A stretch of 62,390 nt of DNA from Nitriliruptoraceae bacterium (GTDB taxonomy: Bacteria; Actinomycetota; Nitriliruptoria; Nitriliruptorales; Nitriliruptoraceae). The notes below the pieces were generated by a model that made no database searches, was not told the origin of the DNA, and saw nothing but the letters and a program-made list of their open reading frames with translations. Numbering within the stretch: position 1 is the first letter of the stretch; each line of letters opens with the position of its first letter. Position numbers and translations under genes: made by a program. The stretch lies in contig JAGYKW010000008.1 of assembly GCA_018401275.1 (NCBI GenBank), positions 1 through 62,390 of the forward strand, read 5' to 3'. Below are positions 55 to 16,992 of the stretch, piece by piece.

Positions 55-1005
55 TCAGGCCGCGTCCGCCAGCTCCGAGCGCCGCGGCGGGTCCGCGCCG
101 TGGCGCATGCACGTGAGCGCCGCCACGCGGGCGGCGAAGGCGAGCGCGTCGCGCAGCGTCACGTCGTCCGCTGTGGCGAGGGCCCGGCGTTCCAGCAGCG
201 AACGCTCGTCGAGCGCGGCGAGCAGTCCCGCCGTGAACGCATCGCCCGCACCGACGGTGTCGACGACGTCGACGTCCAGCCCGGTGACCGTCAGCATCCG
301 CCCGTCGCTGCGCATGGCGGTCGCGCCCTGCGCGCCCTGCGTCACGACGACGATCTCCGGACCGGACCTGGCCCAGTCGCCGGCGACCGCCAGCGGGTCG
401 CGGTCGGGATGCAGCGCCTCGAGGTCCGCGTCGCTGACCTTCACGAGGTCGACGGCGCCGACGGCCGCGGCGATCGCTGCCCGCTCGGCCACGAGGTCAC
501 CGATGACGGCCGGCCGGACGTTCGGATCGAGGCTGACCAGCGGCCGCGCCGGGGCTGCAGCCACCAGACGCGCGAGGAGCGTGCCGGTGCCGGGGGCGGT
601 GAGCGTGACCGCCCCGAGCGAGACGTGCAGCGCCGCAGCGGCGGACGCCGGCACCTGCTCGACCGCTCGCGCGACGTCGTCGTCCGTCATGCCGGTCGCA
701 CTCGTGCCCTCGAGGACGAACTCGTAGGAGGCGTGTCCGCCCGCGTCGAGGTGGACCGTCGCGAGGGTCGTCGGACGCGTCGTGCGTGCCGCCGGCAGCA
801 CCGTCACGCCGGCGTCCTCGAGGCGCGCCGCGAGCAGGGCGCCGAACCCGTCGTCGGAGATGGCACCGAGGAACCCGGTGGGGACACCGAGGCGACCCAG
901 TCCGACCGCGACGTTGAACGGTGAGCCTCCGGGGAGCGCTCGCTCGCTCCCGTCGGCCTCGCGGACGAGGTCGACCAGCGCCTCTCCGGCGACGACCACG
1001 TGCAT
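55..1005 (-). CDS. PfkB-family sugar kinase (fructokinase-like)
   Basis: A cytoplasmic ribokinase/PfkB-type kinase of 316 aa, the usual length for the family. It starts at ATG (1003-1005) behind a strong GAGGAGG. The N-terminal GEALVD strand, the substrate-lid motif GGSPFN (26-31) and the anion-hole/catalytic motif DTVGAGDAF (249-257, catalytic base Asp255) are intact. It is transcribed divergently from the GH31 operon, so it probably phosphorylates a ketose or related sugar from the same locus. It is less like sulfofructose kinase than the second PfkB gene at 5658: it lacks the DVRW motif. Fructokinase is the best general name; the true substrate cannot be read from sequence. Confidence 0.88.
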   Translation of the reverse strand: MHVVVAGEALVDLVREADGSERALPGGSPFNVAVGLGRLGVPTGFLGAISDDGFGALLAARLEDAGVTVLPAARTTRPTTLATVHLDAGGHASYEFVLEGTSATGMTDDDVARAVEQVPASAAAALHVSLGAVTLTAPGTGTLLARLVAAAPARPLVSLDPNVRPAVIGDLVAERAAIAAAVGAVDLVKVSDADLEALHPDRDPLAVAGDWARSGPEIVVVTQGAQGATAMRSDGRMLTVTGLDVDVVDTVGAGDAFTAGLLAALDERSLLERRALATADDVTLRDALAFAARVAALTCMRHGADPPRRSELADAA

Positions 1006-1133: not shown

Positions 1134-3413
1134 GTGCAGGGTCATCATGAGGGTGTCGCGTGGGTCCGCGGCGCGGAGCCGCTGAGCGCCTTCGACGTCG
1201 TCTCCACCGGTCCTCGTCGGGTCATCGTCCGTGTCCTCGGTGGCCGGCTCGCCATCTCCGTGCACCGACCCGGCACGTTCCGTGTCCGCTGGCTGCTCGA
1301 CGACCCGCAGCCCGACTACGGGATCCTCACCGAGGACGGCGACCGGCCGGATGACGGGGCCCAGGACGCGTCCGACGTCGACCTCGAGCAGGGGACCGAC
1401 GACGGTGGCGTGTGGCTGCGCGTGCGCAGCGGGACGGTCGCGCTCGTGCTGCGAGGGAAGCCGCTGCGCCTGGAGCTCGAGCGGGACGGCCGCGTCCTCC
1501 TCGGCCCGGCGCGCGACCGCTCCATCGACGGTGACCTGCGCTTCCCGGCGGTCGCACGCAAGGACGGCGGCTGGCTGCTGTCCTTCGAGCTGCCCACCGG
1601 CGAGCGGGTCCATGGCCTCGGGGAGAAGTGGGCCGGCCTCGACCGGCGCGGGCAGCGGATCCGCAGCTGGAACGAGGACGCCACCAACCTCAGCGCCGAG
1701 CTGTCCTACAAGAACACGCCGTTCGCGTGGAGCCCGACGGGCTGGTGGTGGTTCCTCCACACGCCCTCACCGGTCACGCACGGGGTCGGCTACCCGAACT
1801 GGTCGCACCGCACGCTGCTCGTGCACCTCGAGGACCGCGAGCTCGACCTGTTCATCGGTGCGCACGACGGACCCGAGGACGCCATCGCGCGCTACACCGA
1901 CCTGACGGGACGGGCGAGCCTGCCGCCGGTGTGGAGCTACGGCGTGTGGATGTCACGCGCCTACTACGCGACCGCCGAGGACGCCATCGGTGTCGTGGAG
2001 AAGCTGCGCGAGCGTCGCATCCCCTCCGAGGTCCTGCTGCTCGACGGCCGCGCGTGGCACGAGTGGGGCAACCGCTTCGACTTCACGTGGGATCCGGCGC
2101 GCTACCCCGACCCGGCCGCGTTCGTCGGGCGCCTGACCGAGCTCGGGTTCCGCACCAACCTGTGGGAGTACTCCTATCTCTCGGTGCGCAACCCGCTGTT
2201 CAACGAGCTCGAGGAGCGTGGGTACTTCCTGCGCAATCCGGACGGATCGACCTACATCCACCGCTGGTTCCCGTGGCCGTTCGAGGAGCACTACCCGTGG
2301 CTGCCGCCCAGCGGCATCATCGACTTCACCAACCCTGAGGCGTACGCCTGGTTCCGCGACCAGCACCGGCCGCTCATCGAGCTCGGGGTCGCGGTCATGA
2401 AGACCGACTACGGCGAGGCCGTCCCGTCGCACGTCGTCGCGTACAACGGCGACAGCGGGCAGCGGCTGCACAACGTGTACACGCTGCTCTACAACCGGTG
2501 CGTGTTCGAGGCGTTCGACCGCTACGGCGACGGCGCGCCGATGGTGTGGGGACGCTCCGGCTGGGCCGGCGTGCAGCGCTCGCCGGTGCAGTGGGGCGGT
2601 GACCCCGGCTGCGACTGGGAGGGGCTCGCCGCATCGATCCGCGGTGGCCTGTCCTGGGGAATGAGCGGAGGACCGTTCTACAGCCACGACATCGGCGGCT
2701 TCGCACGCGGCCAGGTGCCACCGGAGCTCTACATCCGGTGGGCGCAGGCCGGCATCCACTGCTCGCACACGCGCTTCCACGGCATCGGCGAGCGTGAGCC
2801 GTGGGCCTACGGGGACGAGGCCGAGACGATCGTGCGCCGCTGGACCGAGTGGCGCATGCGGCTCATCCCGTACCTGCAGGCCTGTGCGCTCGAGGCGTCG
2901 CGGACCGGGCTGCCCGTCATGCGGGCCATGCCGCTCGCGTTCCCCGACGAACCCGACACGTGGCAGCAGGACACCCAGTACCTGCTCGGCCCGTCGCTGC
3001 TCGTCGCACCGGTCGTGCGCGAGGGCGGTCGCGTGCGCATCACGCTGCCGCGCGGCCGTTGGTTCGAGCTCGCGACGGGGGAGTGGCTCGAGGGTGGGCG
3101 CTCCATCGAACGTGACGTGCCGCTCGACACGATCCCGCTGTTCGGCCGCGAGGGTCACCTGCTCCCGCTCGGACCGGTCGTGCAGCACACCGGCGAACTG
3201 CCGGCGCCCCTCACCGTCGACGAGGTCGTCGCGTTCGGCACGCCGAGCGTCGGCATCGAGCTGCCCGTCGTCGGCGCGGACGGCCGGCTGACGGGTGCGA
3301 TCGCACTGACGCCGACACCGGTCGTGACGCCGACCGGCAGTACGCCCATGGTCAGCGGGCTCGCGGACCTGACCCTTCCGGGGGGCGCCGCACCGACGCT
3401 CACCGTGCACTGA
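1134..3413 (+). CDS. GH31 alpha-glycosidase, YicI-like with Gly-Arg in the C6 pocket (candidate sulfoquinovosidase)
   Basis: A glycoside hydrolase family 31 enzyme of 759 aa that should release a sugar from an alpha-glycoside. The start is GTG 1134, set six bases after GAGGAGG; the open frame upstream is only read-through. The nucleophile is Asp425 in KTDYGE and the acid/base is Asp490 in WGGD, followed by GGPFYSHDIGGF. The overall pattern, including SHTRFHG and PWAYGDE, is that of the YicI alpha-xylosidase group. Where YicI has Cys307-Phe308, which shape the C5/C6 pocket, this protein has Gly305-Arg306 (LLLDGRAW). Loss of bulk plus a positive charge suggests an anionic C6 group such as the sulfonate of sulfoquinovose; this is inference. 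It heads the operon, 32 bases before the next gene. Plain alpha-glucosidase or alpha-xylosidase remains possible. Confidence 0.88.
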   Translation: MQGHHEGVAWVRGAEPLSAFDVVSTGPRRVIVRVLGGRLAISVHRPGTFRVRWLLDDPQPDYGILTEDGDRPDDGAQDASDVDLEQGTDDGGVWLRVRSGTVALVLRGKPLRLELERDGRVLLGPARDRSIDGDLRFPAVARKDGGWLLSFELPTGERVHGLGEKWAGLDRRGQRIRSWNEDATNLSAELSYKNTPFAWSPTGWWWFLHTPSPVTHGVGYPNWSHRTLLVHLEDRELDLFIGAHDGPEDAIARYTDLTGRASLPPVWSYGVWMSRAYYATAEDAIGVVEKLRERRIPSEVLLLDGRAWHEWGNRFDFTWDPARYPDPAAFVGRLTELGFRTNLWEYSYLSVRNPLFNELEERGYFLRNPDGSTYIHRWFPWPFEEHYPWLPPSGIIDFTNPEAYAWFRDQHRPLIELGVAVMKTDYGEAVPSHVVAYNGDSGQRLHNVYTLLYNRCVFEAFDRYGDGAPMVWGRSGWAGVQRSPVQWGGDPGCDWEGLAASIRGGLSWGMSGGPFYSHDIGGFARGQVPPELYIRWAQAGIHCSHTRFHGIGEREPWAYGDEAETIVRRWTEWRMRLIPYLQACALEASRTGLPVMRAMPLAFPDEPDTWQQDTQYLLGPSLLVAPVVREGGRVRITLPRGRWFELATGEWLEGGRSIERDVPLDTIPLFGREGHLLPLGPVVQHTGELPAPLTVDEVVAFGTPSVGIELPVVGADGRLTGAIALTPTPVVTPTGSTPMVSGLADLTLPGGAAPTLTVH

Positions 3414-3445: not shown

Positions 3446-4735
3446 ATGCGCATGCCCGCGAGCGGCCGACCGCCGCACCTCATCGATGAGCACCCGACGT
3501 TCGTCACCCACCTCGAGTGCGGGCTGACCGGCGAGGTCCTGCCCGCCGACACCGTCCAGGGGCTGTCGAGCATCGGTCGTCCGCTGCTCGTGCGCTACGA
3601 CCTCGAGGCGGCGGCCGAGGCGGCGGACCGCGCGACGGTGGAGGCGCGTCACGACGACTGGTGGAAGTACCGCGAGATCCTCCCGGTCCGCCGCAGCGCG
3701 AACATCGTCTCGCTCGCCGAGACGTTCACCCCGCTCGTCGCGATCCCGCGTACCGCGGCCCGGCTCGGCGCGTCGTGGGCGCTCGTGAAGGACGAGGGCC
3801 GACTCCCCACCGGCTCGTTCAAGGCGCGCGGCCTGGCGATGGCCGTCGCGATGGCGAAGGAGCTCGGCCTCTCGCGCCTTGCGATGCCGACGAACGGCAA
3901 CGCGGGAGCGGCGATGGCCGCCTACGCCTCGCGTGCCGGCATGGAGACGTTCATCTTCTGTCCCGCGGACACGCCCGAGGTGAACGTCCGTGAGATCGCG
4001 ATGCAGGGTGCGCACGTGTGGCGCGTCGACGGCTACATCGATGACTGTGGCCGCATCGTCGGTGAGGGCAAGGAGCACATGGGCTGGTTCGACGTGTCGA
4101 CCCTCAAGGAGCCGTACCGCATCGAGGGCAAGAAGACGATGGGCATCGAGCTGCTCGAGCAGCTCGGCTGGGAGGTCCCCGACGTCATCGTCTACCCGAC
4201 GGGCGGGGGCACCGGGCTGATCGGCATGTGGAAGGCGTTCGACGAGCTCGAGGCGATGGGGTGGATCGGTCCGGAGCGCCCTCGCATGGTCGCGGTGCAG
4301 GCGACCGGCTGCGCACCCATCGTCAAGGCGTTCGAGGAGGGCGAGCGGCACGCGACCCGCTGGGAGGGTGCGCACACGATCGCGAGCGGCATCCGGGTCC
4401 CCGCCGCCGTGGGCGACTTCCTCATCCTCGATGCCATCCGAGCCTCGGGCGGGACGGCGATCGCTGTCGAGGATGAGCACATCGAGCGCTGCTCGGCCGA
4501 GGTCGCGAGCCGCGACGGGCTGCTCATGGCACCCGAGGGGGCGGCGACCGTCGCTGCCTGGGAGGTCGGCCTCGAGCGGGGCGACATCTCGCGCGACGAC
4601 CGCGTGGTGCTGTTCAACTGCGGGAACGGCCTCAAGTACCCGATGCCGCCCGCGGACCGTGTGCTCGACGTGCCGGTCGACTGGGCCCGCATGGCGGCCG
4701 AGGCGTCCGCGGACACGGCCGAGCATCACGCATGA
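3446..4735 (+). CDS. Threonine-synthase-fold PLP enzyme (role in operon uncertain)
   Basis: A 429-aa fold-type II PLP enzyme that would normally be called threonine synthase. The PLP-binding lysine is Lys126 in GSFKARG, the Asn loop is TNGNAGAA, and the phosphate cup is the GGGTG loop near residue 253. The N-terminus keeps one Cys (LECGLTGEV) of the usual start. No hom or thrB lies nearby; instead it sits between a GH31 enzyme and an SlcC-like dehydrogenase and overlaps the latter by ATGA. Cysteate synthase of methanogens is a known threonine synthase relative, so a beta-replacement or elimination at cysteate (sulfite release) is an attractive alternative. This is context-based inference; a housekeeping ThrC is not excluded. 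Confidence 0.85.
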   Translation: MRMPASGRPPHLIDEHPTFVTHLECGLTGEVLPADTVQGLSSIGRPLLVRYDLEAAAEAADRATVEARHDDWWKYREILPVRRSANIVSLAETFTPLVAIPRTAARLGASWALVKDEGRLPTGSFKARGLAMAVAMAKELGLSRLAMPTNGNAGAAMAAYASRAGMETFIFCPADTPEVNVREIAMQGAHVWRVDGYIDDCGRIVGEGKEHMGWFDVSTLKEPYRIEGKKTMGIELLEQLGWEVPDVIVYPTGGGTGLIGMWKAFDELEAMGWIGPERPRMVAVQATGCAPIVKAFEEGERHATRWEGAHTIASGIRVPAAVGDFLILDAIRASGGTAIAVEDEHIERCSAEVASRDGLLMAPEGAATVAAWEVGLERGDISRDDRVVLFNCGNGLKYPMPPADRVLDVPVDWARMAAEASADTAEHHA

Positions 4736-5661
4736 GTGCCCGTCCACGGGTCGTCGTCAGCGAGTTCATCGCCCCCGAGGGCCTCGCGCGCCTCGGGAGC
4801 GCCGTCGACCTCGTCGCTGACGCCACGCTGGTGACCGACCGCGACCGGCTGCTGGTGGCCGTCGCTGATGCTGACGGACTGATCGTTCGGGACCGCACAC
4901 AGGTCGACGTCGAGCTGCTCGATGCGGCCCCGAGGCTGCGCACCGTCGGGCGCCTGGGCGTCGGGACCGACAACCTCGACCTCGAGGCGATGCAGGCACG
5001 CGGCGTGCAGGTGCACCTCGCGACCGGCGCGAACGCCATCTCCGTCGCCGAGCACGTCATCGGTGCACTGCTGTTCCTCTCGCGCCCGTCGTTCACCGCG
5101 TCCGAGAGGGTGATCGCCGGCGAGTGGCCGCGCACCGAGCTGATCGGCCGTGAGCTCGCCGGGCGTCGCCTCGGGCTGCTGGGCTTCGGAGCGACCGCGC
5201 GCGCCGTCGCGCAGCGTGCTGCCGCGCTCGGCATGGAGATCCTCGCGTCCGATCCGATGGTGACCGATCCCGGCCCGGGGGTCACCCTCCTCGGGTCCGA
5301 CGACCTGTTCGCGGCGTCCGACGCGCTGAGCGTGCATGCGCCGCTGCTGCCGTCGACCCGAGGACTGGTCGGGACGGCTGCGCTCGGTCGCATGCCGGAG
5401 GGCGCGCTGCTCGTCGACACGTCTCGCGGAGGCGTCGTCGACCATGACGCGGTGGTCGCGGCGCTGCGCAGCGGACGGCTCGCTGGCGCGGCGCTGGACG
5501 TGCACGCGGTCGAGCCGGTGGATGCTGCGGCGGGAGCGCGGTATTCGGGAGTCCCAGGACTCCTGCTCACCCCGCACCTCGCCGGAGTCACCCACGAGTC
5601 GAACGTGCGCATCTCTCGGGTCATCGCGGATGCGGTCATCGCCGAGCTGACCTCGGCGTGA
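4732..5661 (+). CDS. D-2-hydroxyacid dehydrogenase, (S)-sulfolactate dehydrogenase-like
   Basis: An NAD(P)-dependent 2-hydroxyacid dehydrogenase of the SerA family, 309 aa. It has the catalytic set Arg232 (TSRGG), Glu261 (AVEP) and His282 (TPHLAG), and a Rossmann loop LGFGATAR in which the usual third glycine is alanine. The start VVVSEF, the stretch LIVRDRTQV, VGRLGVGTDN and the ending TPHLAGVTHESN match my recollection of SlcC, which interconverts (S)-sulfolactate and 3-sulfopyruvate. It overlaps the PLP gene (ATGA) and the kinase gene (GTGA). In a sulfoglycolysis operon it could carry the C3 sulfonate onward. Other 2-hydroxyacids cannot be ruled out. Confidence 0.88.
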   Translation: MSARPRVVVSEFIAPEGLARLGSAVDLVADATLVTDRDRLLVAVADADGLIVRDRTQVDVELLDAAPRLRTVGRLGVGTDNLDLEAMQARGVQVHLATGANAISVAEHVIGALLFLSRPSFTASERVIAGEWPRTELIGRELAGRRLGLLGFGATARAVAQRAAALGMEILASDPMVTDPGPGVTLLGSDDLFAASDALSVHAPLLPSTRGLVGTAALGRMPEGALLVDTSRGGVVDHDAVVAALRSGRLAGAALDVHAVEPVDAAAGARYSGVPGLLLTPHLAGVTHESNVRISRVIADAVIAELTSA

Positions 5662-6671
5662 TCGACGCCGACCGGACGGACGCTCCTCGCCCCACGCTGC
5701 TGTGCGTCGGGATCGCGGTGGTCGACGTCGTCGCCCACGCGAACGGTGCGCTCGTCCCCGGCGTGAAGCAGTTCGCCGACCGGATCGTGACCACCTATGG
5801 CGGGCCGGCGACGACCGCGGCGGCCGCAGCCGCGCGACTCGGGGTCGACGTCGCGCTCGTCGCGGCCGTCGGTGACGACGAGCGAGGTGATGCCCTGCGT
5901 ACCGCGCTCGGACGGCACGGGGTCGGCACCGACCTGTTGCTCACGCGTCCAGGAGTGGGGACCGCGACGTCGCTGGTCGTCGTCACACCCGACGGCGAGC
6001 GGACCATCGTGAACGCCACCGGGGCAGCGCTGCGCGCGCCGCTCGACCCCGAGGAGGCCGCCGCGATGATGGAGCGCGCGGGGCGGGCCGACGCGGTGCT
6101 CGTCGACGTCCGTTGGCCCGCGGCCGCCGCGCTCGCGCTCGCCGCCGCAGCGCGGGCCGCCGTCCCCGGCGTGCTCGACCTCGACCGCACCGAGGCGCAG
6201 GACGCGGACCGGGTGCGCGGGCTCGCGCGTGCAGCGAGCCACGTCATCGCCTCACGCGATGCGCTCGACGATCTGCTCGTCGCTGCGGGGGAGCGGCCCG
6301 TCGGTGACGCTCCCGAGGCCGCGCTCGACGCGCTCGCGCAGCTCTCCGGCGGCGGCATGCTCGCGGTCACGCTCGGTCAGGACGGTGTCGCGTGGCGTGA
6401 CGTCGATGGCAGCGCGGGCATCGCCGTGCCACCGCGGGTCGTGGCGGTCGAGACGCTCGGCGCGGGCGACGTGTGGCACGGGGCGTTCGCGGCCGCGCTC
6501 GCTCGGCGTGAGCCGGTCGCCGACGCGGTCGAGCATGCGAACGCGGCCGCCGCGCTGCGCGTGTCGCGGACGGGCGGCTGGGACGCGCTCGCGGACCTCG
6601 CCGAGGTCGAGGGCCTCATGCGCGACACTGCCCGCGACACTGCCCGCGACACGGATGGAGGCACGGTATGA
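5658..6671 (+). CDS. PfkB kinase, sulfofructose kinase-like (YihV-like)
   Basis: A 337-aa PfkB kinase starting at GTG 5658, which overlaps the previous stop. Motifs are GGPATTAA (48-55), DVRW (150-153), LDLD (171-174) and TLGAGDVWHG (264-273, catalytic Asp269). E. coli YihV reads GGGPAATAA, DVRW, LDGD and TTGAGDVFHG at the same places. Lys37, Asn119 and Arg152 fall where, from memory, YihV has Lys27, Asn109 and Arg138, the residues holding the sulfonate of sulfofructose. This is the strongest single sign of sulfosugar use. Predicted reaction: sulfofructose plus ATP to sulfofructose-1-phosphate. The C-terminus carries an in-frame 12-bp repeat (RDTA units). Confidence 0.88.
   Translation: MIDADRTDAPRPTLLCVGIAVVDVVAHANGALVPGVKQFADRIVTTYGGPATTAAAAAARLGVDVALVAAVGDDERGDALRTALGRHGVGTDLLLTRPGVGTATSLVVVTPDGERTIVNATGAALRAPLDPEEAAAMMERAGRADAVLVDVRWPAAAALALAAAARAAVPGVLDLDRTEAQDADRVRGLARAASHVIASRDALDDLLVAAGERPVGDAPEAALDALAQLSGGGMLAVTLGQDGVAWRDVDGSAGIAVPPRVVAVETLGAGDVWHGAFAAALARREPVADAVEHANAAAALRVSRTGGWDALADLAEVEGLMRDTARDTARDTDGGTV
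6621..6652. repeat. 12-bp tandem repeat in kinase 3' end
   Basis: The unit CGCGACACTGCC occurs twice perfectly and once in part, encoding R-D-T-A units in the disordered kinase tail. Confidence 0.85.
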
Positions 6672-7756
6672 GCCAGGCGAAGTCGGGGACGGGACGCAGC
6701 GCCGGGACGCGCTGGCGCCTGCGACGGCTCGCGGACGCGACCGGGCGCTTCGCGATGCTCGCCGTCGACCAGCGCCCACCCATCGAGCAGGTCGTGCGTG
6801 CCGCTCGCGGAGAGGACGCCCACCGTCGTGAGGACGTGTCCGCGATCAAGCGGCTGCTCATCGAGGAGCTCGGCGACCTCTCGACCGCCGTGCTCGCCGA
6901 CCCGCTGATCGCCTACCCCGACGCCGTCGACGCGCTGCCGTCCGACCGGGGCCTGATCGTCACGCTCGAGCACGCCGTGTACGACGAGGGCCCGGGCGGA
7001 CGCCGCTCGGAGGCCATCCCGGACTGGACCGTCGAGAAGATCGCACGCATGGGTGGCGACGGCGTGAAGGTGCTCGCCTGGTACCGACCGGACGCGTCGC
7101 CCGAGGTGCGCGAGCATCAGGAGCGCTTCGTCGCCGAGGTCGGTGAGGCCTGCCGCCGACACGACCTGCCGTTCGTGTTCGAGCTGCTCGTCTACCCCTT
7201 CGCTGCGGGCGAGGGCACCGGCGACTCGTACGCGGAGGACTCCGGCAAGCGCGCCGAGGCCGTCATCGAGTCCGTGGAGCGTTTCGCCGCACCGGAGTTC
7301 CATGTCGACCTGTTCAAGCTCGAGTCGCCCGTCCCCGCCGCCGAGCTGCCGGACCCGGACGGTCCGGGCGCGGACGTCGTGCAGGCCCACTTCGACGCGC
7401 TCGACCGTGCTGCCGGCCGTCCGTGGGTCATGCTCAGTGCCGGTGCGACGAAGGACGCCTTCCGTCACGTGCTGAGCTACGCGTACCGCGCCGGCGCGAG
7501 TGGCTTCCTCGCCGGCCGTGCGATCTGGTGGGACGCGGTGCAGCACTTCCCCGACGTCGAGGCCTGCCGCCGTGCGCTGCAGGCTGACGGTCGTCCCTAC
7601 CTCTCCGACCTGGTCGCGAAGACCGCTGCCGAGGCGCGACCGTGGACGGAGCATCCCGGCGCTGGTCCCGATCCGCTCGTGCCCGAGCTCGCTGGCCCGG
7701 ACTTCGCCCGTGACTATCCCGGCCGTCCCGACACTGCCCAGGAGATGACCGCATGA
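6668..7756 (+). CDS. Class I aldolase, sulfofructose-1-phosphate aldolase-like (YihT/LacD family)
   Basis: A 362-aa Schiff-base aldolase. The family motifs are FAMLAVDQR (28-36), the catalytic lysine Lys217 in DLFKLESP, and PWVMLSAGA followed by GASGFLAGRAIWW (252-261 and 276-288). These line up closely with E. coli YihT (FAMLAVDQR, LYKVE, PWVILSSG, GASGFLAGRAVW). It is longer than YihT (about 290 aa) because of insertions around 100-120 and 175-195 and a C-terminal extension. Predicted reaction: cleavage of sulfofructose-1-phosphate to DHAP and sulfolactaldehyde. Tagatose-1,6-bisphosphate aldolase is the alternative, but the YihV-like kinase upstream (ATGA overlap) favours the sulfosugar. 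Confidence 0.88.
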   Translation: MSQAKSGTGRSAGTRWRLRRLADATGRFAMLAVDQRPPIEQVVRAARGEDAHRREDVSAIKRLLIEELGDLSTAVLADPLIAYPDAVDALPSDRGLIVTLEHAVYDEGPGGRRSEAIPDWTVEKIARMGGDGVKVLAWYRPDASPEVREHQERFVAEVGEACRRHDLPFVFELLVYPFAAGEGTGDSYAEDSGKRAEAVIESVERFAAPEFHVDLFKLESPVPAAELPDPDGPGADVVQAHFDALDRAAGRPWVMLSAGATKDAFRHVLSYAYRAGASGFLAGRAIWWDAVQHFPDVEACRRALQADGRPYLSDLVAKTAAEARPWTEHPGAGPDPLVPELAGPDFARDYPGRPDTAQEMTA

Positions 7757-9159
7757 CCCCTCGCCTCGGACTCATCGCGCTCGGACGTTCGACCTTCGAC
7801 CTCGAGGTCGCCGCGTCGACGGCGCGCGCCGTCCGTGCCGCGCTCGCCGCGCTCCCCGACGTCGACGTGTTCGACACCGGAGGTGTCGCCGTCGAGACGC
7901 CTGACGTCGTGGCGGCCGGCGCGGCCCTCGCGGCCGTCGCAGCGGGTGACGGCTTCGACGCGGTCATCGTGCTGCAGGCGACGTTCACCGACTCGACGCT
8001 GCCCGCGGCTGCGGTCGCAGGTCTGCCCGTCGACCTCCCGATCGTGCTGTGGGGTGCGCCCGAGCCACGGACCGGTGGGCGGCTCACGATGAACGCGCTG
8101 TGTGGCATCAACCTCGCCGCGTACCGGCTGCGTGCTGACGGCCGGGACGTGCGCGCCCTCTACCTCGACCCGGCTGCGCCCGATGCGGTGCGACGTCTCG
8201 CGGCGGCCATCGCGGCGCCGGCCCCACGTCCTGCGCCGCGCTCGCTCCCCACGCCCAGCGCTGACGACCGTGTCCGTGCCGACGTGGTGCGCGCACGGCT
8301 GTCAGGCATGACGGTCGGACGCGTCGGCCATCATCCGGACGGCTTCGATCCGTGCGCCGCCGGCGTCGAGGATCTCGCGACGCTCGGCACCACGCTCGAC
8401 CACGTGGAGCTCGACGCGATGTTCGACGGCGCACGCGCCGCGACCGAGGACGAGCTCGTCCCACTGCGTGCGATCGTCGCCGCCCGAGGGGCGGACGCCG
8501 TCGATGGGGCCGGTGTCGATGCGACGCTGCGGCTGCACGTCGCGCTGCGACGCCTGGTCGAGCAGCGCGGCTGGTCCGCGGTCGCGACGCGCTGCTGGCC
8601 GGAGTGCTTCACCGAGATGGATGCGGCGGCGTGCGCCGCGCAGGGCATGCTCGCCGAGTCGGGGACACCGGCGACGTGCGAGGCGGACGTGCTCGGAGCG
8701 GTGACCGCGGTCGCGCTCGAGGCCGCATCGGGTCAGCGGGCCTTCGTCGCCGACCTCGTCGATGCCGCGGCGGACGGCACGGTCGCGTTCTGGCACTGCG
8801 GTCAGGCCGCTCCTGACCTCGCCCACCCGGACGAACCGGTCGCGAGCACCGTCCACCCCAACCGTCGACGGCCGCTGCTCCACGAGTTCCGGCTCCGTCC
8901 GGGCCGCATCACGATCGCGCGCCTGGGGCATTCGGACGGCGGGCTGCGGCTCGCGCTCGGATCGGGCGAGATCCTCGATGAACCACGCCCCTTCGCCGGG
9001 ACCGCTGCGGTCGTGCGGCCCGACACCCCGGCGCACGAGATGGTCGCCACGGTGCTCGCGGAGGGCCTCGATCACCATTACGGCCTCGTGCACGGTGACG
9101 TGCGCGGGGTGATGGTCGCGTTCGCCGAGGCGCTGGACATCCCTGTCGTCGCACTCTGA
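7753..9159 (+). CDS. L-fucose-isomerase-like aldose-ketose isomerase (candidate sulfoquinovose isomerase)
   Basis: A 468-aa protein of the L-fucose/L-arabinose isomerase superfamily. The N-terminal half has the Rossmann-like substrate domains (FDAVIVLQATF, then MNALCGIN near 113-120). The C-terminal half has CWPE (281-284) and the likely Mn-binding set Glu310 (CEAD), Asp334 (VADLVD) and His348 (FWHCG). It is the last gene of the ATGA-coupled operon. A sulfo-EMP variant using a fucose-isomerase-type sulfoquinovose isomerase is, as I recall, known from Arthrobacter, and its partners are a kinase and an aldolase of the types found here. Predicted reaction: sulfoquinovose to sulfofructose. Substrate identity is inference. 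Confidence 0.82.
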   Translation: MTPRLGLIALGRSTFDLEVAASTARAVRAALAALPDVDVFDTGGVAVETPDVVAAGAALAAVAAGDGFDAVIVLQATFTDSTLPAAAVAGLPVDLPIVLWGAPEPRTGGRLTMNALCGINLAAYRLRADGRDVRALYLDPAAPDAVRRLAAAIAAPAPRPAPRSLPTPSADDRVRADVVRARLSGMTVGRVGHHPDGFDPCAAGVEDLATLGTTLDHVELDAMFDGARAATEDELVPLRAIVAARGADAVDGAGVDATLRLHVALRRLVEQRGWSAVATRCWPECFTEMDAAACAAQGMLAESGTPATCEADVLGAVTAVALEAASGQRAFVADLVDAAADGTVAFWHCGQAAPDLAHPDEPVASTVHPNRRRPLLHEFRLRPGRITIARLGHSDGGLRLALGSGEILDEPRPFAGTAAVVRPDTPAHEMVATVLAEGLDHHYGLVHGDVRGVMVAFAEALDIPVVAL

Positions 9160-9348: not shown

Positions 9349-10755
9349 ATGAAGAGGACCAAGCTGCGCTTCGCAGCGCCCCTCGCCGCTCTCGGTCTGG
9401 TCATCGCCGCATGCGCGGGCGACGCCGACGAGCCGGCCGCCAGCCCGGCCCCAGCCCCGGCCCCGGCGGCAGAGGCGAACCCCTGGGACGACATCCCGGA
9501 GGAAGACATCCTCGGACGCGCGCTCGCTGGCGCCTATGAGGGCCGCTCGGTGAGCGTCTTCGGCTCCGAGCGTTCCGAGGTGGAGGCAGGCGCGTTCAAC
9601 GACACCCTCGCGCTCTTCCGCGAGGCGACCGGCATCAACGCCGTCTACACCGGCTCGGCCGACTTCGAGCCGCAGCTCAACGTCATGATCCAGGGCAACA
9701 ACCCGCCGGACATGGCGCTCATCCCCCAGCCGGGTGGCGTGCGTGGCTTCGCCGCAGCCGGGTCGGTCCTCGCCGTCCCCGCCGCGATCGTGGAGCGCAC
9801 CAACGCGCAGTTCCCGGCGGGCACCAACGACCCGTACGTGGTGGACGGCAGCACCTACGCCCTCCGCTACAAGACGGACCTCAAGTCCATCCTCTGGTAC
9901 AACAACGCGATCTTCGCTGACAACGGCTACGAGATCCCGGACAGCTGGGACGCGCTCAAGGCACTGTCGGCCACGATGATCGCTGACGGCATCACGCCGT
10001 GGTGCGTCGGCATCGAGTCGGGTGGCGCCACGGGTTGGCCGTTCACCGACTGGATGGAGGAGATGGTCCTCCGTCTCGTCGACGAGAACGTCTACGACCA
10101 GTGGACCGCTGGCGACGTGACCTTCTCCGACCCGCGCATCGTCGAGGTCGCTGAGGAGATCCTGTCGGTCTGGAACACGCCGGGCATGGTCTACGCCTCG
10201 GGTGGCACCATCGCTGCGACGCCGTTCGGCGCCAACGCGGAGCCGCTCGTCAACGGACAGTGCGCGATGCACCGTCAGGCGCAGTTCTTCGCCTCGTTCT
10301 TCGACTCCGCGGGGGGCACCATCGGCCCCGACGGTGACGTCGGCGTGGCGTACTTCCCTGCCGGTGGCGACGGTCGCTCCCCGGTGCTGACCGCCGGGAA
10401 CTCGGTCGCCGCGTTCCGTGACGCTCCTGAGGTCTGGGCGCTCATGACGTGGCTGACCGACGCCGAGGGCCAGGAGGCACGCCAGCGTGCCCAGGCCACT
10501 CGTGCGGCGGCCGCAAGTGGCCCGGGTGCGGCATCCGGGTTCATGTCCTCCAACGCGAACCTGGACCCGTCGGTCTTCAACCCGGTCGAGCGGACCTGGT
10601 ACGAGACCCTGGCGAGCGCCTCGCCGGCACGTTTCGACGCATCGGACCTCATGGTCCCTGCGCGCAACCGCGCGTTCTGGGACGAGGGCACGGCTGCGGT
10701 GAACGGGGACAAGTCCGTGGCGGACGCCTTCGCGGCGATCGACGCGGCGTCCTGA
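9349..10755 (+). CDS. Sugar ABC transporter substrate-binding lipoprotein (AglE-like)
   Basis: A 468-aa extracellular solute-binding protein of the SBP_bac_8/MalE type. The signal peptide ends in a lipobox with lipidated Cys22 (VIAAC), followed by an Ala-Pro linker (33-41). The stretches TPWCVGIESG, ATGWPFTDW and CAMHRQAQF are those of the rhizobial alpha-glucoside binder AglE. It precedes two permeases and an ATPase, so it feeds an importer whose likely cargo is the alpha-glycoside cut by the GH31 enzyme; if the locus is for sulfoquinovose, that would be sulfoquinovosyl glycerol. GGAGAGGA before the ATG is a good ribosome binding site. Confidence 0.9.
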   Translation: MKRTKLRFAAPLAALGLVIAACAGDADEPAASPAPAPAPAAEANPWDDIPEEDILGRALAGAYEGRSVSVFGSERSEVEAGAFNDTLALFREATGINAVYTGSADFEPQLNVMIQGNNPPDMALIPQPGGVRGFAAAGSVLAVPAAIVERTNAQFPAGTNDPYVVDGSTYALRYKTDLKSILWYNNAIFADNGYEIPDSWDALKALSATMIADGITPWCVGIESGGATGWPFTDWMEEMVLRLVDENVYDQWTAGDVTFSDPRIVEVAEEILSVWNTPGMVYASGGTIAATPFGANAEPLVNGQCAMHRQAQFFASFFDSAGGTIGPDGDVGVAYFPAGGDGRSPVLTAGNSVAAFRDAPEVWALMTWLTDAEGQEARQRAQATRAAAASGPGAASGFMSSNANLDPSVFNPVERTWYETLASASPARFDASDLMVPARNRAFWDEGTAAVNGDKSVADAFAAIDAAS

Positions 10756-10938: not shown

Positions 10939-13362
10939 ATGACGGCCACGATGGTCGAACGCGAGACGATCAGCGACATCGATCCGGGTGGGCCTGCTGG
11001 GGCCGCGCGGAGGACTCTCATGCTCGGTGGCGGACTCTTCGCGGTCTTCCTCGTGGCTTCCTTCTTCAACGGCGCGTCCGACCCTGAGATCGGTGCGGTC
11101 ACGCAGACCCTCCAGCGGATCCTGGCTGCCCTGATCGGGGCCGGCGGCATCCTCGGTGCGCTGCGTGCCTTCCGCAGCCCGGAGACCGTGATGTCGCGGC
11201 GCGTCGGGCGCCTCGCTCTCGGACTGGCTGCGACCGGCCTCGTCTGGTGGCTCTACCTCGAGCGCGACGGGGTCAGGGGGGCGGTGCACAGCGTCGTCCT
11301 CGCCCTCGTGCTCAGCAGCGTCATCTTCGTCATCGCGAACCGCTGGCTCGACCAGTCACTGCGGAGCTGGGCACGCTTCACCGGCATCTCCGGTGCGGCC
11401 CTCGGGCTGCTGCTCGGGGTGCTCCTCGTCGCGAACGACGCGATGGGACTGTTCCTCGGAACGGTCGGCTCTCGGGCCGATCGCAGCCTCTGGCTCATCC
11501 CCGTCGTGGCGCTCGTCGGAGGCGTCTTCGGGACGGTCTTCGGAGCGTCCGAGGGACGCATGCGCCTGATCGTCGGGGTCGCGGGGGGTGCCGGGACCGG
11601 CGTCCTCATCGGGGCGTTCCTGCGGACCGGTTCACTCCCGTCGCTCGAGCTCGTCCCGCTCCTCGCGGCCACGGCAGGGTTCGCCGTGTTCGGTGGGGTG
11701 CTGGCGCAGGTGCGTGGTCGGGACCTCGCCCGTGGGGCGGTGCTCGGCGGCGCCTTCGGATGGCTCCTCGGCGCCTTCGGGTTCCCAGAGCTCGGGGGCG
11801 GCACGGTCCTCGAGGCGATGCTCGGGGCGGGGGTGCTCGGCGCGCTCGTCGGGCTGCGGATGGGACTCTCCCCGACACGCGACATGGGGGACCGCCTGCG
11901 TCTCGAGGGACGCATCCGGACCATCATCTTCCTCGCGCCCGCGCTCACCTTCCTCTCGGCGGCGCTGGTCGTCCCGACGATGCGGACGATCTACATCTCG
12001 TTCCTCGAGCGCGGGTCGGACGGCTTCGTCGGCCTCGACAACTTCCGTTTCATCTTCGGGCAGCCCTCCTTCTACAACGTGAGCGCCTGGCGGAGCATCT
12101 TCGGTTCCATCGAGTTCCTCGCCTTCGCCTTCGCGCTCACGCTCGGCCTCGGCCTCGCGATCCGCCAACGGAGGGACATCGACGGTCTCGTCCCGCCACG
12201 TCTTGTCGTGGCCACCGGAACGGGTCTCGTGCTCCTGCTCGGGAGCATCGCGGACCGCAACGGACTCCTCGACGCGCTCCCGGTCGCCGCCTGGCCCCTC
12301 GTCTCGATCGCCGCGATCCTCGCGATCGTCGTCGCGGTCGCCGACTACCTCCGCCGTAATCCCGGGAACTCCGGCCTGAGCGGTCCCGGTGGTGGTGCTC
12401 TCGGGATCGCAGCGCTCATGTTCATGTTCGCGGTGTTCGTGCAGCTCCGAGGGACCCTCTTCAATAACCTCTGGTGGGTCGTCCTCGTGACGTCGACGGC
12501 TGCCGGACTCGGGCTGGCCATCGCGGCGCTCGCGGACCGGGCCCGTGCTGAGTCGGCTGCGAAGTCGATCATCTTCATGCCGATGGCACTGAGCTTCGTC
12601 GGGGCCGGCATCATCTGGCGCTTCATGTACCTCGCCCGTCCGCAGCAGGATCCGCAGACGGGTGTCCTCAACGCCCTGTGGGTCGGCCTCGGGAACCTGG
12701 CGGTCTCCGATCGCGCGGGGACGGCGGCCCTCATCATCCTCGCCGTCGCAGCACTCCTCGCGCTGTTCGCCCTGCTCGCCTTCCAGCAGCGTTCTCTCGG
12801 AACGGGATGGTTCGCCGGCCTACTCGCGCTCTGGGCCGCCTGGCTCGGATCGCGGTTCCTCGCGGGCGACGGCGTCGCCGGGGTCCAGGTCGTGGACGGG
12901 GAACCGGTGACCTCGGCGCTGCTGTTCATCTCCGGGACGCAGCAGTTCGGCGCGTACAACAACGTGTTCATCATGCTGCCGTTCGTCTGGGTGTACACCG
13001 GCTTCGCCATGGTCATCTTCTCCGCGGCGATCAAGGGCGTCCCCTCGGACCTGCTCGAGGCGGGTCGGGTCGACGGAGCGACGGAGGCGCAGGCCTTCTG
13101 GCGCATCGTGCTCCCGCAGATCCGCCCCACCATCGGTGTCGTCGTCACGACCATCATCGTCGTGGTCATGAAGGTGTTCGACATCGTCAAGGTCATGACG
13201 AACGGGAACTTCGGCACGCAGGTGCTCGCGAACGAGATGTGGAACCGGGCCTTCATCGACGGGAACTTCGGCGTCGGGTCGGCGGTCGCGACGATCCTGT
13301 TCCTGTCGGTCCTCCCGGTCATGTACGTCAACATCCGACGGATGCAGAAGGAGGCCGCATGA
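10939..13362 (+). CDS. MalF/AglF-type ABC permease with a very long extra membrane region
   Basis: An 807-aa inner-membrane permease, well over twice the usual length (about 300-500 aa). The typical MalF-type start (GRIRTIIFLAPALTF) appears only near residue 325. The first 310 residues are a glycine-rich membrane block of roughly eight to ten helices with no function I recognise, and further helices are inserted around 410-480 and 590-640. The C-terminal permease domain is complete: the EAA loop is LLEAGRVDGATEAQAFWRI near 703-721, contacting the ATPase. The stop overlaps the next start (ATGA). The frame is continuous and the EAA loop is intact, so this is not an annotation artefact. Confidence 0.88.
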   Translation: MTATMVERETISDIDPGGPAGAARRTLMLGGGLFAVFLVASFFNGASDPEIGAVTQTLQRILAALIGAGGILGALRAFRSPETVMSRRVGRLALGLAATGLVWWLYLERDGVRGAVHSVVLALVLSSVIFVIANRWLDQSLRSWARFTGISGAALGLLLGVLLVANDAMGLFLGTVGSRADRSLWLIPVVALVGGVFGTVFGASEGRMRLIVGVAGGAGTGVLIGAFLRTGSLPSLELVPLLAATAGFAVFGGVLAQVRGRDLARGAVLGGAFGWLLGAFGFPELGGGTVLEAMLGAGVLGALVGLRMGLSPTRDMGDRLRLEGRIRTIIFLAPALTFLSAALVVPTMRTIYISFLERGSDGFVGLDNFRFIFGQPSFYNVSAWRSIFGSIEFLAFAFALTLGLGLAIRQRRDIDGLVPPRLVVATGTGLVLLLGSIADRNGLLDALPVAAWPLVSIAAILAIVVAVADYLRRNPGNSGLSGPGGGALGIAALMFMFAVFVQLRGTLFNNLWWVVLVTSTAAGLGLAIAALADRARAESAAKSIIFMPMALSFVGAGIIWRFMYLARPQQDPQTGVLNALWVGLGNLAVSDRAGTAALIILAVAALLALFALLAFQQRSLGTGWFAGLLALWAAWLGSRFLAGDGVAGVQVVDGEPVTSALLFISGTQQFGAYNNVFIMLPFVWVYTGFAMVIFSAAIKGVPSDLLEAGRVDGATEAQAFWRIVLPQIRPTIGVVVTTIIVVVMKVFDIVKVMTNGNFGTQVLANEMWNRAFIDGNFGVGSAVATILFLSVLPVMYVNIRRMQKEAA

Positions 13363-14300
13363 GCGCCCTGCGTGTCCCATCGGGCGGCGTGGGCGCTGCC
13401 GTCTACCGCGTCATCCGGACGATCCCGACCGGCGCGCTGTGGATCATCGTCGCCATCTGGGCCCTCCCGACCGTCGGGCTGTTCGCGAACTCCTTCCGAG
13501 GGGCCTCGGAGCAGCGGACCACGCCGTGGTGGCTCATGCTGCGCGACGCGGAGCTGACGCTCGACAACTACGCGACGGTGCTCGGGACCGACGTGCAGGG
13601 CGGTCTCGTCCAGGGCGTCATCAACTCGTTCGCGATCGCGCTGCCGGCGACGGTCATCCCGATCGCGATGGCCGCCTTCGCGGCGTACGCCTTCGCATGG
13701 ATGGACTTCCGCGGCCGTGAGTGGCTGTTCATCGGGACCGTCTCCCTGCTGGCCGTCCCGCTGCAGACGGCGCTGATCCCACTGCTCCAGCTCTACAACG
13801 GGGGGGCGAACCAGACGCTGCCGTTCATCGACAAGACGATCGCCGTGTTCCCGGACCTCTCCCTCACGGGCACGACCACGGCGGTGTGGTTGACGCACGC
13901 CGGGTTCGCGATGCCGCTCGCGATCTTCCTGCTCCACAACTTCATCAGTGGCCTACCCAAGGACATCTTCGAGTCCGCCCGCATCGACGGCGCTGACCAC
14001 TTCCAGATCTTCGTGCGGCTCGTCCTCCCGCTGTCGATCCCGGTCCTTGCCGCGTTCGCGATCTTCCAGTTCCTCTGGACCTGGAACGACTACCTGATCG
14101 CGCTGACGATGATCGGGCCGTTCGCGCCGGACAAGATGCCTGCGACGGTGATCATCGCAGCGATCGCCGGGGACTTCGGGCGCTACGAGCACCTGCTGAC
14201 CGCAGGAGCGTTCGTGCAGGCGTTCTTCCCCATCATCGTGTTCTTCGCACTCCAGCGCTACTTCGTCCGCGGCATCCTTGCCGGCTCCGTGAAGGGCTGA
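13359..14300 (+). CDS. MalG/AglG-type ABC permease
   Basis: A 313-aa inner-membrane permease of normal length with about six helices. The start is ATG 13359, overlapping the previous stop; the longer open frame upstream lies inside the first permease. The EAA loop SARIDGADHFQIFVRLVLP, then a WTWNDYL motif, marks the MalG type. It pairs with the extended MalF-type permease to form the channel of the sugar importer. Confidence 0.92.
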   Translation: MSALRVPSGGVGAAVYRVIRTIPTGALWIIVAIWALPTVGLFANSFRGASEQRTTPWWLMLRDAELTLDNYATVLGTDVQGGLVQGVINSFAIALPATVIPIAMAAFAAYAFAWMDFRGREWLFIGTVSLLAVPLQTALIPLLQLYNGGANQTLPFIDKTIAVFPDLSLTGTTTAVWLTHAGFAMPLAIFLLHNFISGLPKDIFESARIDGADHFQIFVRLVLPLSIPVLAAFAIFQFLWTWNDYLIALTMIGPFAPDKMPATVIIAAIAGDFGRYEHLLTAGAFVQAFFPIIVFFALQRYFVRGILAGSVKG

Positions 14301-14360: not shown

Positions 14361-15557
14361 ATGGCTGAGATCGTCTTCGACAAGGTCAACAAGATCTATC
14401 CCGACGGGACCCAGGCGATCTTCGATCTGTCGTTCGAGGTCGCGGACAACGAGTTCGTGATCCTCGTCGGACCGTCGGGCTGCGGGAAGTCGACCGCGCT
14501 GCGCATGGTCGCCGGCCTCGAGGAGATCACGAGCGGTGAGCTGCGCATCGGTGACCGGGTCGTGAACGACCTTTCGCCCAAGGAGCGCGACATCGCGATG
14601 GTCTTCCAGTCGTACGCGCTGTACCCGCACATGAGCGTCGCCGACAATATGGGGTTCGCCCTGAAGCTCGCGAAGGTGTCGAAGGAGGAGATCGACCGAC
14701 GCGTCAACGAGGCCGCGGAGATGCTCGGCCTGAAGGAGTACCTGCACCGCAAGCCGAAGGCGCTCTCCGGCGGGCAGCGGCAGCGCGTCGCCATGGGTCG
14801 TGCGATCGTCCGCTCGCCCCAGGCCTATCTGATGGATGAGCCGCTCTCCAACCTCGACGCGAAGCTGCGCGTCCAGATGCGCGGTGAGATCGCCGCGCTC
14901 CAGGACCGGCTCCAGGTCACGACGCTCTACGTCACCCACGACCAGGTCGAGGCGATGACCATGGGCGACCGGGTCGCGGTGCTCAAGCTCGGGTGGTTGC
15001 AGCAGGTCGCTTCGCCGACCGATCTCTACGAGCGGCCCGACAACCTGTTCGTCGCTGGCTTCATCGGCTCCCCGGCGATGAACCTCTCCGAGACGACGGT
15101 GCGCGAGCAGGACGGACGGGTCGTCATCGACCTCCAGGAGGGCTCGACCCTCACGGTCGACCCGGCGACGCTCGAGCGCTACCCGCGCGTGAAGGAGCGC
15201 ATCGGTGGACGCGTCGCCGTGGGCATCCGGCCGGAGCACTTCGTCCCGGTCCCCGATGTCGCCGAGGACCGCGTCCTGCGCGGCATCGACGTCGGGCTCG
15301 TCGAGGCGCTCGGTGCTGAGTCGCTCGTGCACGTGCGCACCCGCACGACCGCGGTCGTGTCCGACGACATGCGTGCGGCGATCGACGACGAGGACGCGTT
15401 CGAGGACCTCAAGCGCCAGGCTGCACAGGGCGGGCAGAGCTTCGTGATGCGCTTCGCGCCCGACGCGGCGCCACGCCTGGGGGACCGGATCGACGTCGGC
15501 GTGCTCACCGACAAGATCCACTTCTTCGACATCGAGACGGGCCGCGCACTGCGTTGA
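14361..15557 (+). CDS. Sugar ABC transporter ATPase (MsiK/UgpC/AglK type)
   Basis: A 398-aa ATPase of the carbohydrate importer class. Walker A is GPSGCGKST (37-45), the Q-loop VFQSYALYPH follows near 81-90, the signature LSGGQ is 135-139 and Walker B ends in MDEP (158-161). The C-terminal TOBE/regulatory region from about residue 240 includes GIRPEHF. It lies 60 bases after the second permease behind AGGAGGG, so it belongs to this transporter. In actinobacteria such ATPases can serve several importers; being in the operon suggests a dedicated one here. Confidence 0.93.
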   Translation: MAEIVFDKVNKIYPDGTQAIFDLSFEVADNEFVILVGPSGCGKSTALRMVAGLEEITSGELRIGDRVVNDLSPKERDIAMVFQSYALYPHMSVADNMGFALKLAKVSKEEIDRRVNEAAEMLGLKEYLHRKPKALSGGQRQRVAMGRAIVRSPQAYLMDEPLSNLDAKLRVQMRGEIAALQDRLQVTTLYVTHDQVEAMTMGDRVAVLKLGWLQQVASPTDLYERPDNLFVAGFIGSPAMNLSETTVREQDGRVVIDLQEGSTLTVDPATLERYPRVKERIGGRVAVGIRPEHFVPVPDVAEDRVLRGIDVGLVEALGAESLVHVRTRTTAVVSDDMRAAIDDEDAFEDLKRQAAQGGQSFVMRFAPDAAPRLGDRIDVGVLTDKIHFFDIETGRALR

Positions 15558-15572
15558 CCCGCACTGGCCTGT

Positions 15573-15605
15573 GGACCGGCAGCGACCTCGTTCAGCGGCC
15601 GGTCC
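15573..15605. terminator. Possible bidirectional terminator between ATPase and GH1 genes
   Basis: GGACCGGC (15573-15580) and GCCGGTCC (15598-15605) can pair across a 17-base loop in the short convergent gap. The loop is long and there is no U-run, so the call is weak. Confidence 0.35.
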
Positions 15606-16992
15606 GCTCCGCCTCGAGCGCCTCGAGCGCCTCGAGCGGTTCGGGCAGCCGGCGCTCGGCGATCGCGTCACGCAACCACCAGCCGCTGTCCTTGACCACG
15701 CGGCGCTGCGTGGCGTGGTCGACCCACACGATCCCGAAGCGCTGTGCGAACCCCTGCGTCCACTCGAGGTTGTCGAGCAGGCTCCAGGTCAGATGGCCTT
15801 CGATCGGCACGCCGGCCGCGCGCGCGTCCAGCGCAGCAGCGAGGTGACCGTGGAGGTAGGCGATCCTCCGGGCGTCGCGCACCCGACCGTCCGGACCCGG
15901 TGCGTCCGAGAAACTCGCACCGTTCTCGGTGATCATCACGCTGGCGGGTGCATAGTCACGCATCAGGCGCAGCAGGAAGTCGTGGAGCACGTCGGGCTGG
16001 ATGGCCCAGCCCATCTCGGTGTGACCCCTCGGCGGGTTCGGACCAGGGAGCACCTCGGGCGTCTCGTCCTCCTCGCTGCCCGCGCGCATCCGGATACCCG
16101 TGTAGTAGTTGAGGCCCAGCACGTCGAGCGGCTGCGCGATCAGCTCCAGGTCGCCCTCGAGCACTGGGCCATCGCCATCGGGACGCGCGTCGAAGCGTCC
16201 CTGCTCGCTGTAGGTCGCGACCATGTCCTCCGGGTAGCCGAGCCCGAACAGCGGGTCGAGGAACCAACGGTTGCGGAAGCCGTCGAAGTGACGCGTCGCC
16301 TCGACGTCCGGCTCGCGGTCCGTCGCAGGGACCGCCGGACGGCAGTCGACCGCGATCGCGATGCGTGCCGCAGGGGCGCGCGAGCGGATCGCTTGCGCCG
16401 CCGCGCCATGGCTGACCAGCAGGTGGTGAGCGACCGTCAGCGCTTCGGTCATGTCGGTCCCGCCGGGCGCGAACACCCCATCGCGGTGGCCGAGCATCGA
16501 GGCGACCCACGGCTCGTTGTGCGTGATCCAGTTCACCACGCGGTCGCCGAGCGTGTCGGCCATGAGTGACGCGTAGTCGGTGAACCGGCCGACCGTCGCG
16601 CGTGAGCGCCAGCCTCCGACGTCCTCGAGGTGCTGCGGGAGGTCCCAGTGGTACAGCGTCAGCCACGGGGTGATGCCGCGTTCGAGCAGCCCGTCGACGA
16701 GTCGGTCGTAGAAGCCGAGCCCGCGCGGATCAGGACGGCCCTGGCCCTCCGGCAGCACCCGTGCCCAGGCGACGGAGAACCGGTATGCCTCGAGGCCGAG
16801 CTCCGCCATCAGGTCGAGGTCCTGCTCGACACGGTCGACGTGGTCGCAGGCATGGCGACCGTCGTCGGGGAGACCCCGCTGCGCGATGAAGCGGTCCCAG
16901 ATCGTCTCGCCACGGCGGTCGGCAGCACCCTCGATCTGGAAGGCGGAGGTCGCCGCACCGAGCACGAACCCGGTCGGGAGTGGACGGCTCAT
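15592..16992 (-). CDS. GH1 beta-glucosidase
   Basis: A 466-aa family 1 glycoside hydrolase, full length. The acid/base is Glu160 in THNEPW (most members read TLNEPW or TFNEP) and the nucleophile is Glu356 in ITENG. The sugar-binding parts FQIEGA, YRFSVAW and NLEW near 416 are present. No signal peptide is seen, so it acts on imported beta-glucosides in the cytoplasm. It converges on the transporter ATPase with a 34-base gap. The tail LEALEALEAER comes from a perfect 9-bp triplication. Confidence 0.92.
   Translation of the reverse strand: MSRPLPTGFVLGAATSAFQIEGAADRRGETIWDRFIAQRGLPDDGRHACDHVDRVEQDLDLMAELGLEAYRFSVAWARVLPEGQGRPDPRGLGFYDRLVDGLLERGITPWLTLYHWDLPQHLEDVGGWRSRATVGRFTDYASLMADTLGDRVVNWITHNEPWVASMLGHRDGVFAPGGTDMTEALTVAHHLLVSHGAAAQAIRSRAPAARIAIAVDCRPAVPATDREPDVEATRHFDGFRNRWFLDPLFGLGYPEDMVATYSEQGRFDARPDGDGPVLEGDLELIAQPLDVLGLNYYTGIRMRAGSEEDETPEVLPGPNPPRGHTEMGWAIQPDVLHDFLLRLMRDYAPASVMITENGASFSDAPGPDGRVRDARRIAYLHGHLAAALDARAAGVPIEGHLTWSLLDNLEWTQGFAQRFGIVWVDHATQRRVVKDSGWWLRDAIAERRLPEPLEALEALEAERTGR
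15611..15637. repeat. 9-bp tandem triplication in GH1 3' end
   Basis: GCCTCGAGC is repeated three times perfectly and encodes the Leu-Glu-Ala repeats at the C-terminus of the GH1 protein. Confidence 0.9.

Follow-up and report, generated by a model that had tools for sequence, protein, structure and literature searches.

The window that we analyzed, a 62,390-nucleotide stretch of DNA from a Nitriliruptoraceae bacterium, encodes a GH31 glycoside hydrolase (1134..3413, forward strand; 759 amino acids) that is very probably a retaining exo-α-sulfoquinovosidase (SQase) from the YicI-like side of the family. We predict this activity because the clade that it belongs to is restricted to sulfosugar clusters, which encode any of three pathway modules and lack YihQ. 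SQases carry out the entry step in the breakdown of sulfoquinovose (SQ), a sulfur-containing sugar found in the membranes of plants and algae; roughly ten billion tons of it are made each year (PMC10755693). The activity is known and the variant is new: the clade most likely defines an uncharacterized second lineage of GH31 SQases. Judging by titles, terms, and abstracts in the open literature, a YicI-type SQase does not seem to have been proposed, and an earlier mention is possible. In PMC10599462, the category "GH31 SQase (PF01055)" is counted in the vicinity of SLA dehydrogenases, in Chloroflexi among others, and may silently take in such proteins. Current models score the clade's enzymes as α-xylosidases or generic α-glucosidases, and Pfam lumps them as "GH31", so surveys that are based on YihQ can easily overlook Chloroflexota, Nitriliruptoria, and Deinococcota that break down SQ.

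The GH31 protein and its operon

The GH31 reading frame begins with GTG at 1134, which is also the start in the congeners (MQ(G/A)HHEG). The domain order is Gal_mutarotas_2, Glyco_hydro_31 barrel, and C-terminal domain (PF13802, PF01055, and PF21365), and the PF01055 score of 278.6 bits indicates that the GH31 catalytic domain is present. A preliminary description of this DNA had called the protein YicI-like rather than YihQ-like, and this held up. The protein scored 478.6 bits on the NCBIfam model for YicI (NF007940) vs. 220.5 bits on the model for YihQ (NF007746). Both scores are below the curated cut-offs (606 and 553, respectively), so the protein is a member of neither family. In a sequence search of the PDB, YicI chains were the closest (E of about 1e-114 to 1e-116). 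The AlphaFold2 model had a mean pLDDT of 91.6 and a pTM of 0.93, and in the structure comparison against the PDB, YicI was the best neighbor (Z = 44.9, rmsd 2.4, 692 aligned residues), vs. Z = 36.6-37.7 for the classical SQases.

The alignment also identifies the predicted catalytic residues, both encoded on the forward strand. The nucleophile is D425 (2406..2408; D416 in YicI and D405 in YihQ) and the acid/base is D490 (2601..2603; D482 in YicI and D472 in YihQ). Residues of the YicI site that align and are kept include D304, W344, K423, D425, R474, W487, D490, and H549.

The gene for GH31 is the first of an operon on the forward strand. It is followed by a threonine-synthase-like PLP enzyme (3446..4735) from the PRK08197 family (626 bits, cut-off 303). 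The housekeeping ThrC, which is a stronger match, is on contig C23 of the same genome, so the copy in the operon is a specialized paralog. Next are a D-2-hydroxyacid dehydrogenase (4732..5661; PF02826/PF00389), which is a candidate (S)-sulfolactate dehydrogenase (SlcC-like), and a PfkB-family kinase (5658..6671), which is a candidate sulfofructose kinase and is 33% identical to YihV from E. coli. The class I aldolase (6668..7756) is of the LacD/YihT type (PRK12858, 316.6 bits, cut-off 184; 28% identical to YihT) and is a candidate sulfofructose-1-phosphate aldolase. The candidate sulfoquinovose isomerase (7753..9159) is a fucose-isomerase-family protein that resembles SqvD/SftI; its sole NCBIfam match is sulfoquinovose isomerase (NF048012, E = 5e-67), at 226.5 bits, below the cut-off of 700. 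The operon ends with a sugar ABC importer: a substrate-binding protein (9349..10755; conserved in the congeners), permeases of the MalF type (10939..13362) and the MalG type (13359..14300), and an ATPase of the MalK/UgpC type (14361..15557). Outside the operon, a divergent PfkB-family sugar kinase (55..1005, reverse strand; PF00294) adjoins GH31, in the congeners as well, and the importer genes are followed, on the other strand, by one for a GH1 β-glucosidase (15592-16992). No RNA families were found in the window.

These genes suggest the following scheme. The ABC transporter would import a sulfoquinovoside, such as sulfoquinovosyl glycerol. By analogy with other GH31 enzymes, GH31 would act by retaining double displacement: D490 would protonate the leaving group while D425 forms the glycosyl-enzyme, which would then be cleaved by water. 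Free SQ would pass to the SqvD-like isomerase, the PfkB kinase, and the LacD/YihT-type aldolase. The PLP enzyme and the SlcC-like dehydrogenase may, we infer, handle sulfopyruvate or cysteate. This pair (3446-5661 in the window) also occurs in another SQ-type cluster, L048 (5365-6300 and 12934-14202), which has molybdopterin and NrfD-type genes that resemble the sulfite-oxidizing SoeABC as well. The pair could possibly be a new route for freeing sulfite from a C3 sulfonate.

Several observations count against an SQase. The family-level matches of both the isomerase and GH31 are all below the curated cut-offs. The two congeners (L043 and L044) lack the aldolase gene, both in the operon and elsewhere in their genomes. 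There is no SLA dehydrogenase in the window's operon, and the best ALDH homologs elsewhere in its genome and those of the two congeners are just 36-37% identical. Also, one member of the clade has a substitution in the loop that is discussed below.

Sulfosugar genes across the clade

By scanning genome contigs, and with one match on a plasmid, we obtained 26 proteins with the motif D-G-R/Q-A-W. The hosts are Nitriliruptoraceae (with orthologs in the two congeneric genomes that are 88% and 81% identical and have the same motif), many Anaerolineae and other Chloroflexota, Rhodospirillales, Parvularcula, and Deinococcus peraridilitoris. The clade spans four bacterial phyla. It was monophyletic in every tree (SH-aLRT of 100). 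Most of the loci are on contigs of metagenome-assembled genomes; D. peraridilitoris is a cultured member.

Within the flanks that we examined, an SqvD-like isomerase is near GH31 in 19 of the 24 clade loci from the genome scan, vs. 4 of 56 other YicI-like loci (P = 2 · 10−10, Fisher exact test), and those 4 belong to a neighboring sulfo-associated group. For four of the clade loci (L052, L059, L060, and L070), the contig ends too near to GH31 to judge, while in the flanks of L064, the gene seems to be absent. The clade's loci encode three types of pathways. For sulfo-TAL, 12 of the 24 loci have an SqvA-like transaldolase; for example, in L054 it lies directly downstream of GH31 (12188-12850), with SuyA- and SuyB-like genes behind it. 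For sulfo-TK, 4 loci (L061, L065, L069, and L077) have a split transketolase that is similar to SqwGH. For sulfo-EMP, the LacD-type aldolase is found in L072, the window, and D. peraridilitoris, whose cluster on pDEIPE01 (DEIPE_RS19145-RS19190 in strain DSM 19664) comprises a transporter, the isomerase, PfkB, the aldolase, a GH31 (WP_015231244.1) with DGRAW, and a dehydrogenase of the succinate-semialdehyde type. SuyAB is present in 9 clade loci and a TauE-like exporter in 5. The pathways and families behind these modules (SqvD, SqvA, SqwGH, and SuyAB) are described in PMC9594981. All three modules have in common sulfofructose made from SQ, so the glycosidase that they share is best read as an SQ-releasing enzyme. 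None of the 24 loci has a YihQ-type SQase, and a search of the window's genome gave none either.

In 52 other YicI-like loci, we found no SqvD, transaldolase, or transketolase above threshold. Together with the isomerase, kinase, and aldolase in the window's own operon, this supports the preliminary description, which had proposed a sulfoquinovosidase on the YicI-like side. It also bears on whether GH31 could be an ordinary α-xylosidase or α-glucosidase that merely travels with sulfosugar genes. The sequence and the fold are YicI-like, and YicI-like enzymes are mostly α-xylosidases or α-glucosidases, but the Cys-Phe pair that defines the xylosidases is gone in all members of the clade, the operon has no xylose or maltose genes, and the tie to three alternative sulfosugar modules, without YihQ, is clade-wide. 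This clade-wide context led us to reject a plain α-xylosidase or α-glucosidase as the best reading, and we consider it very improbable.

Another alternative is that GH31 acts on some other α-glycoside that is anionic or sulfonated at C6. For example, it might be an α-sulfofucosidase, acting on 6-deoxy-6-sulfogalactose. The gene context is firmer for a sulfosugar than for the gluco configuration. There is no known sulfofucosidase, and the classical SQases do not cleave pNP-α-sulfofucoside (PMC12421959). But the modules in question belong to SQ pathways, and the sole known pathway for sulfofucose is of the Entner-Doudoroff type and uses other enzymes (PMC12421959). Also, the site residues of gluco-active GH31 enzymes are conserved (D304, W344, D425, R474, W487, D490, and H549). 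We consider such a substrate very unlikely. More broadly, gene context settles the class of substrate better than the residues do.

Two clusters link the window's SQase candidate to other SQases. L049 encodes a YihQ-type SQase, which scores 832 bits on NF007746, along with an SqvD-like isomerase, PFK, and ComC-like and SuyB-like genes. Its isomerase scores higher than the window's on NF048012 (494.5 vs. 226.5 bits), and is also below the cut-off; its 2-hydroxyacid dehydrogenase is 43% identical to the window's. L048 has homologs of the window's transporter, dehydrogenase, aldolase (50% identical), and isomerase, as well as a ThrC-like protein, a kinase that is 43% identical to YihV and 37% identical to the window's kinase, and, as a possible GH188 SQase, a Gfo/Idh/MocA protein. 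(The window's aldolase is 50-55% identical to those beside SqvD in L048 and L072.) One cluster backbone with differing candidate SQases is how non-orthologous replacement is expected to look, and GH31 and GH188 SQases are complementary in the same manner (PMC10755693).

These clusters also contain other recurrent genes. In six Anaerolineae clusters (L054, at 15661-16944, L053, L056, L059, L067, and L082), a LarA-type nickel-pincer racemase lies beside SuyAB. It belongs to the malate racemase LarAH5 family, above the cut-off, and is a candidate sulfolactate racemase that would replace the SlcC/ComC pair. In Anaerolineae sulfosugar clusters without an SLA dehydrogenase, there is an aldehyde:ferredoxin oxidoreductase (L054 18212-20227, L065 7447-9324, and eight further clade loci); it is a candidate for the tungsten-dependent oxidation of sulfolactaldehyde or sulfoacetaldehyde. 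Finally, SQ clusters from Chloroflexota and Deinococcus repeatedly include an M24 protein that resembles aminopeptidase P (L054 16948-18060, L057 13401-14678, and L130 5246-6307).

The Gly-Arg-Ala loop

The clade's motif is D304-G305-R306-A307-W308 (2043..2057, forward strand), where YicI has D306-C307-F308-W309. The preliminary description had reported that residues 305-306 were Gly-Arg in place of the Cys-Phe of YicI. The residues are as described (Gly305 is GGC at 2046-2048 and Arg306 is CGC at 2049-2051), but this is not a plain swap of two residues. D304, G305, A307, and W308 align with D306, C307, F308, and W309 of E. coli YicI, and Arg306 lies opposite a gap, so Gly-Arg-Ala stands for Cys-Phe, or three residues for two. 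In the alignment, the remaining YicI-like proteins all have a gap here.

Across the 26 homologs, G305 and A307 are invariant and R306 is conserved in 25; the exception is L077, a sulfo-TK locus, with Gln. A mutation that arose by chance, or that is specific to the genus, can be rejected given that Arg306 is found in 25 of 26 homologs from four phyla. The same loop contains a second clade-specific arginine, R314 (2073..2075, forward strand), which is present in all 26 and lies beside the position of YihQ's W304. Outside of the clade, this position is W, S, L, or Y. Another arginine, R275, is present in 25 of the 26 and is shared with the neighboring sulfo-associated group.

In YicI, Cys307, Phe308, and Phe277 close the C6 side of the active site, and in YihQ, Arg301, Trp304, and Tyr508 hold the sulfonate. 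Gly-Arg-Ala and Arg314 would open the −1 site on its C6 side and may offer the sulfonate one or two arginines. Arg306 is a plausible ligand, judging from the alignment. This role is weakened by the Gln in L077 and by the sulfo-associated neighbors, which lack R306 and carry Arg at the Phe277 position. The enzyme might be an SQase in which R306 merely shapes the loop and the ligand is R314 (or R275). The invariance of R314 and its place next to the W304 column of YihQ suggest this, as do the replacement of R306 in L077 and the sharing of R275 with the neighboring group, but R306 occupies the site of Cys307 and Phe308 and is nearly invariant itself. We rate this version of the SQase as only slightly short of an even chance. 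R306 is favored by its position and R314 by its invariance, and both may act.

The neighboring group is a second set of YicI-like GH31 proteins in sulfosugar clusters, from Actinomycetota (L046, at 6044-8407, and L047, at 11336-13657; Streptomyces-type) and Ktedonobacteria (L098, L102, L105, and L109). The L046 cluster has an aldolase that is 50% identical to YihT, an SSADH-type dehydrogenase, and TauE; the others have SqvD and SuyAB. This group lacks both R306 and R314, and all six proteins have Arg at the position of YicI's Phe277. The two groups were sisters in one tree (SH-aLRT of 85), had no support as sisters in another (17), and were separate in a third. The logic of a positive charge at a site where YicI shuts out C6 may apply to both groups, at different positions. 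More tentatively, GH31 SQases may have arisen at least twice, and the YicI-like branch might account for two more origins: arginines in the β3 loop (R306 and R314) in Chloroflexota, Deinococcota, Nitriliruptoria, and Alphaproteobacteria, and Arg at the Phe277 site in Streptomyces and Ktedonobacteria. We lean somewhat against this scenario. If it is true, then two different sulfonate pockets were each built into an α-xylosidase-like frame.

The preliminary description had also suggested that the enzyme evolved independently of YihQ. Our trees favor this: the Gly-Arg clade grouped with YicI-like proteins, apart from nine YihQs, with α-glucosidases in between. But a common origin with YihQ was not rejected. 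Constraining the clade to join YihQ made the log likelihood worse by 13.5-15.6 (AU test, P = 0.26 and 0.20). These tree sets included α-glucosidases and more YihQs than the first set, in which YihQ was the only outgroup, its placement failed, and the AU test gave P = 0.64.

Comparison with known systems

Relative to E. coli YicI, an α-xylosidase and the best neighbor by both sequence and structure (31-33% identity), the window's GH31 has the same pair of catalytic Asp residues and the same order of domains. It differs in having Gly-Arg-Ala for Cys307-Phe308, Arg314 for Trp315, an extended segment at 375-392, and different genes around it.

With the classical SQases (YihQ, SftG, AtSQase, and BmSQase), GH31 shares its family, its fold, and the step that we propose for it, namely entry into SQ catabolism. 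Known SQases have a kcat/KM on pNP-SQ near 1e5 per M per s (PMC11968277). In contrast, Gln288, Trp304, and Tyr508 of YihQ correspond to Asp304, Phe315, and Phe523, and the seven-residue loop insertion that bears YihQ's Arg301 is missing, with Gly312 as the aligned residue. We rejected a canonical YihQ given these pocket residues and the score on the YihQ model. Arg314 could be a functional equivalent of YihQ's sulfonate-binding residues. The two kinds of enzymes would offer a clean comparison of how one (β/α)8 site can be remodeled to recognize a C6 sulfonate.

The NAD+-dependent SQases of family GH188 (SqgA) likewise fill the SQase slot in clusters without YihQ (PMC10755693). Unlike the window's GH31, they have an unrelated fold and an oxidoreductive mechanism.
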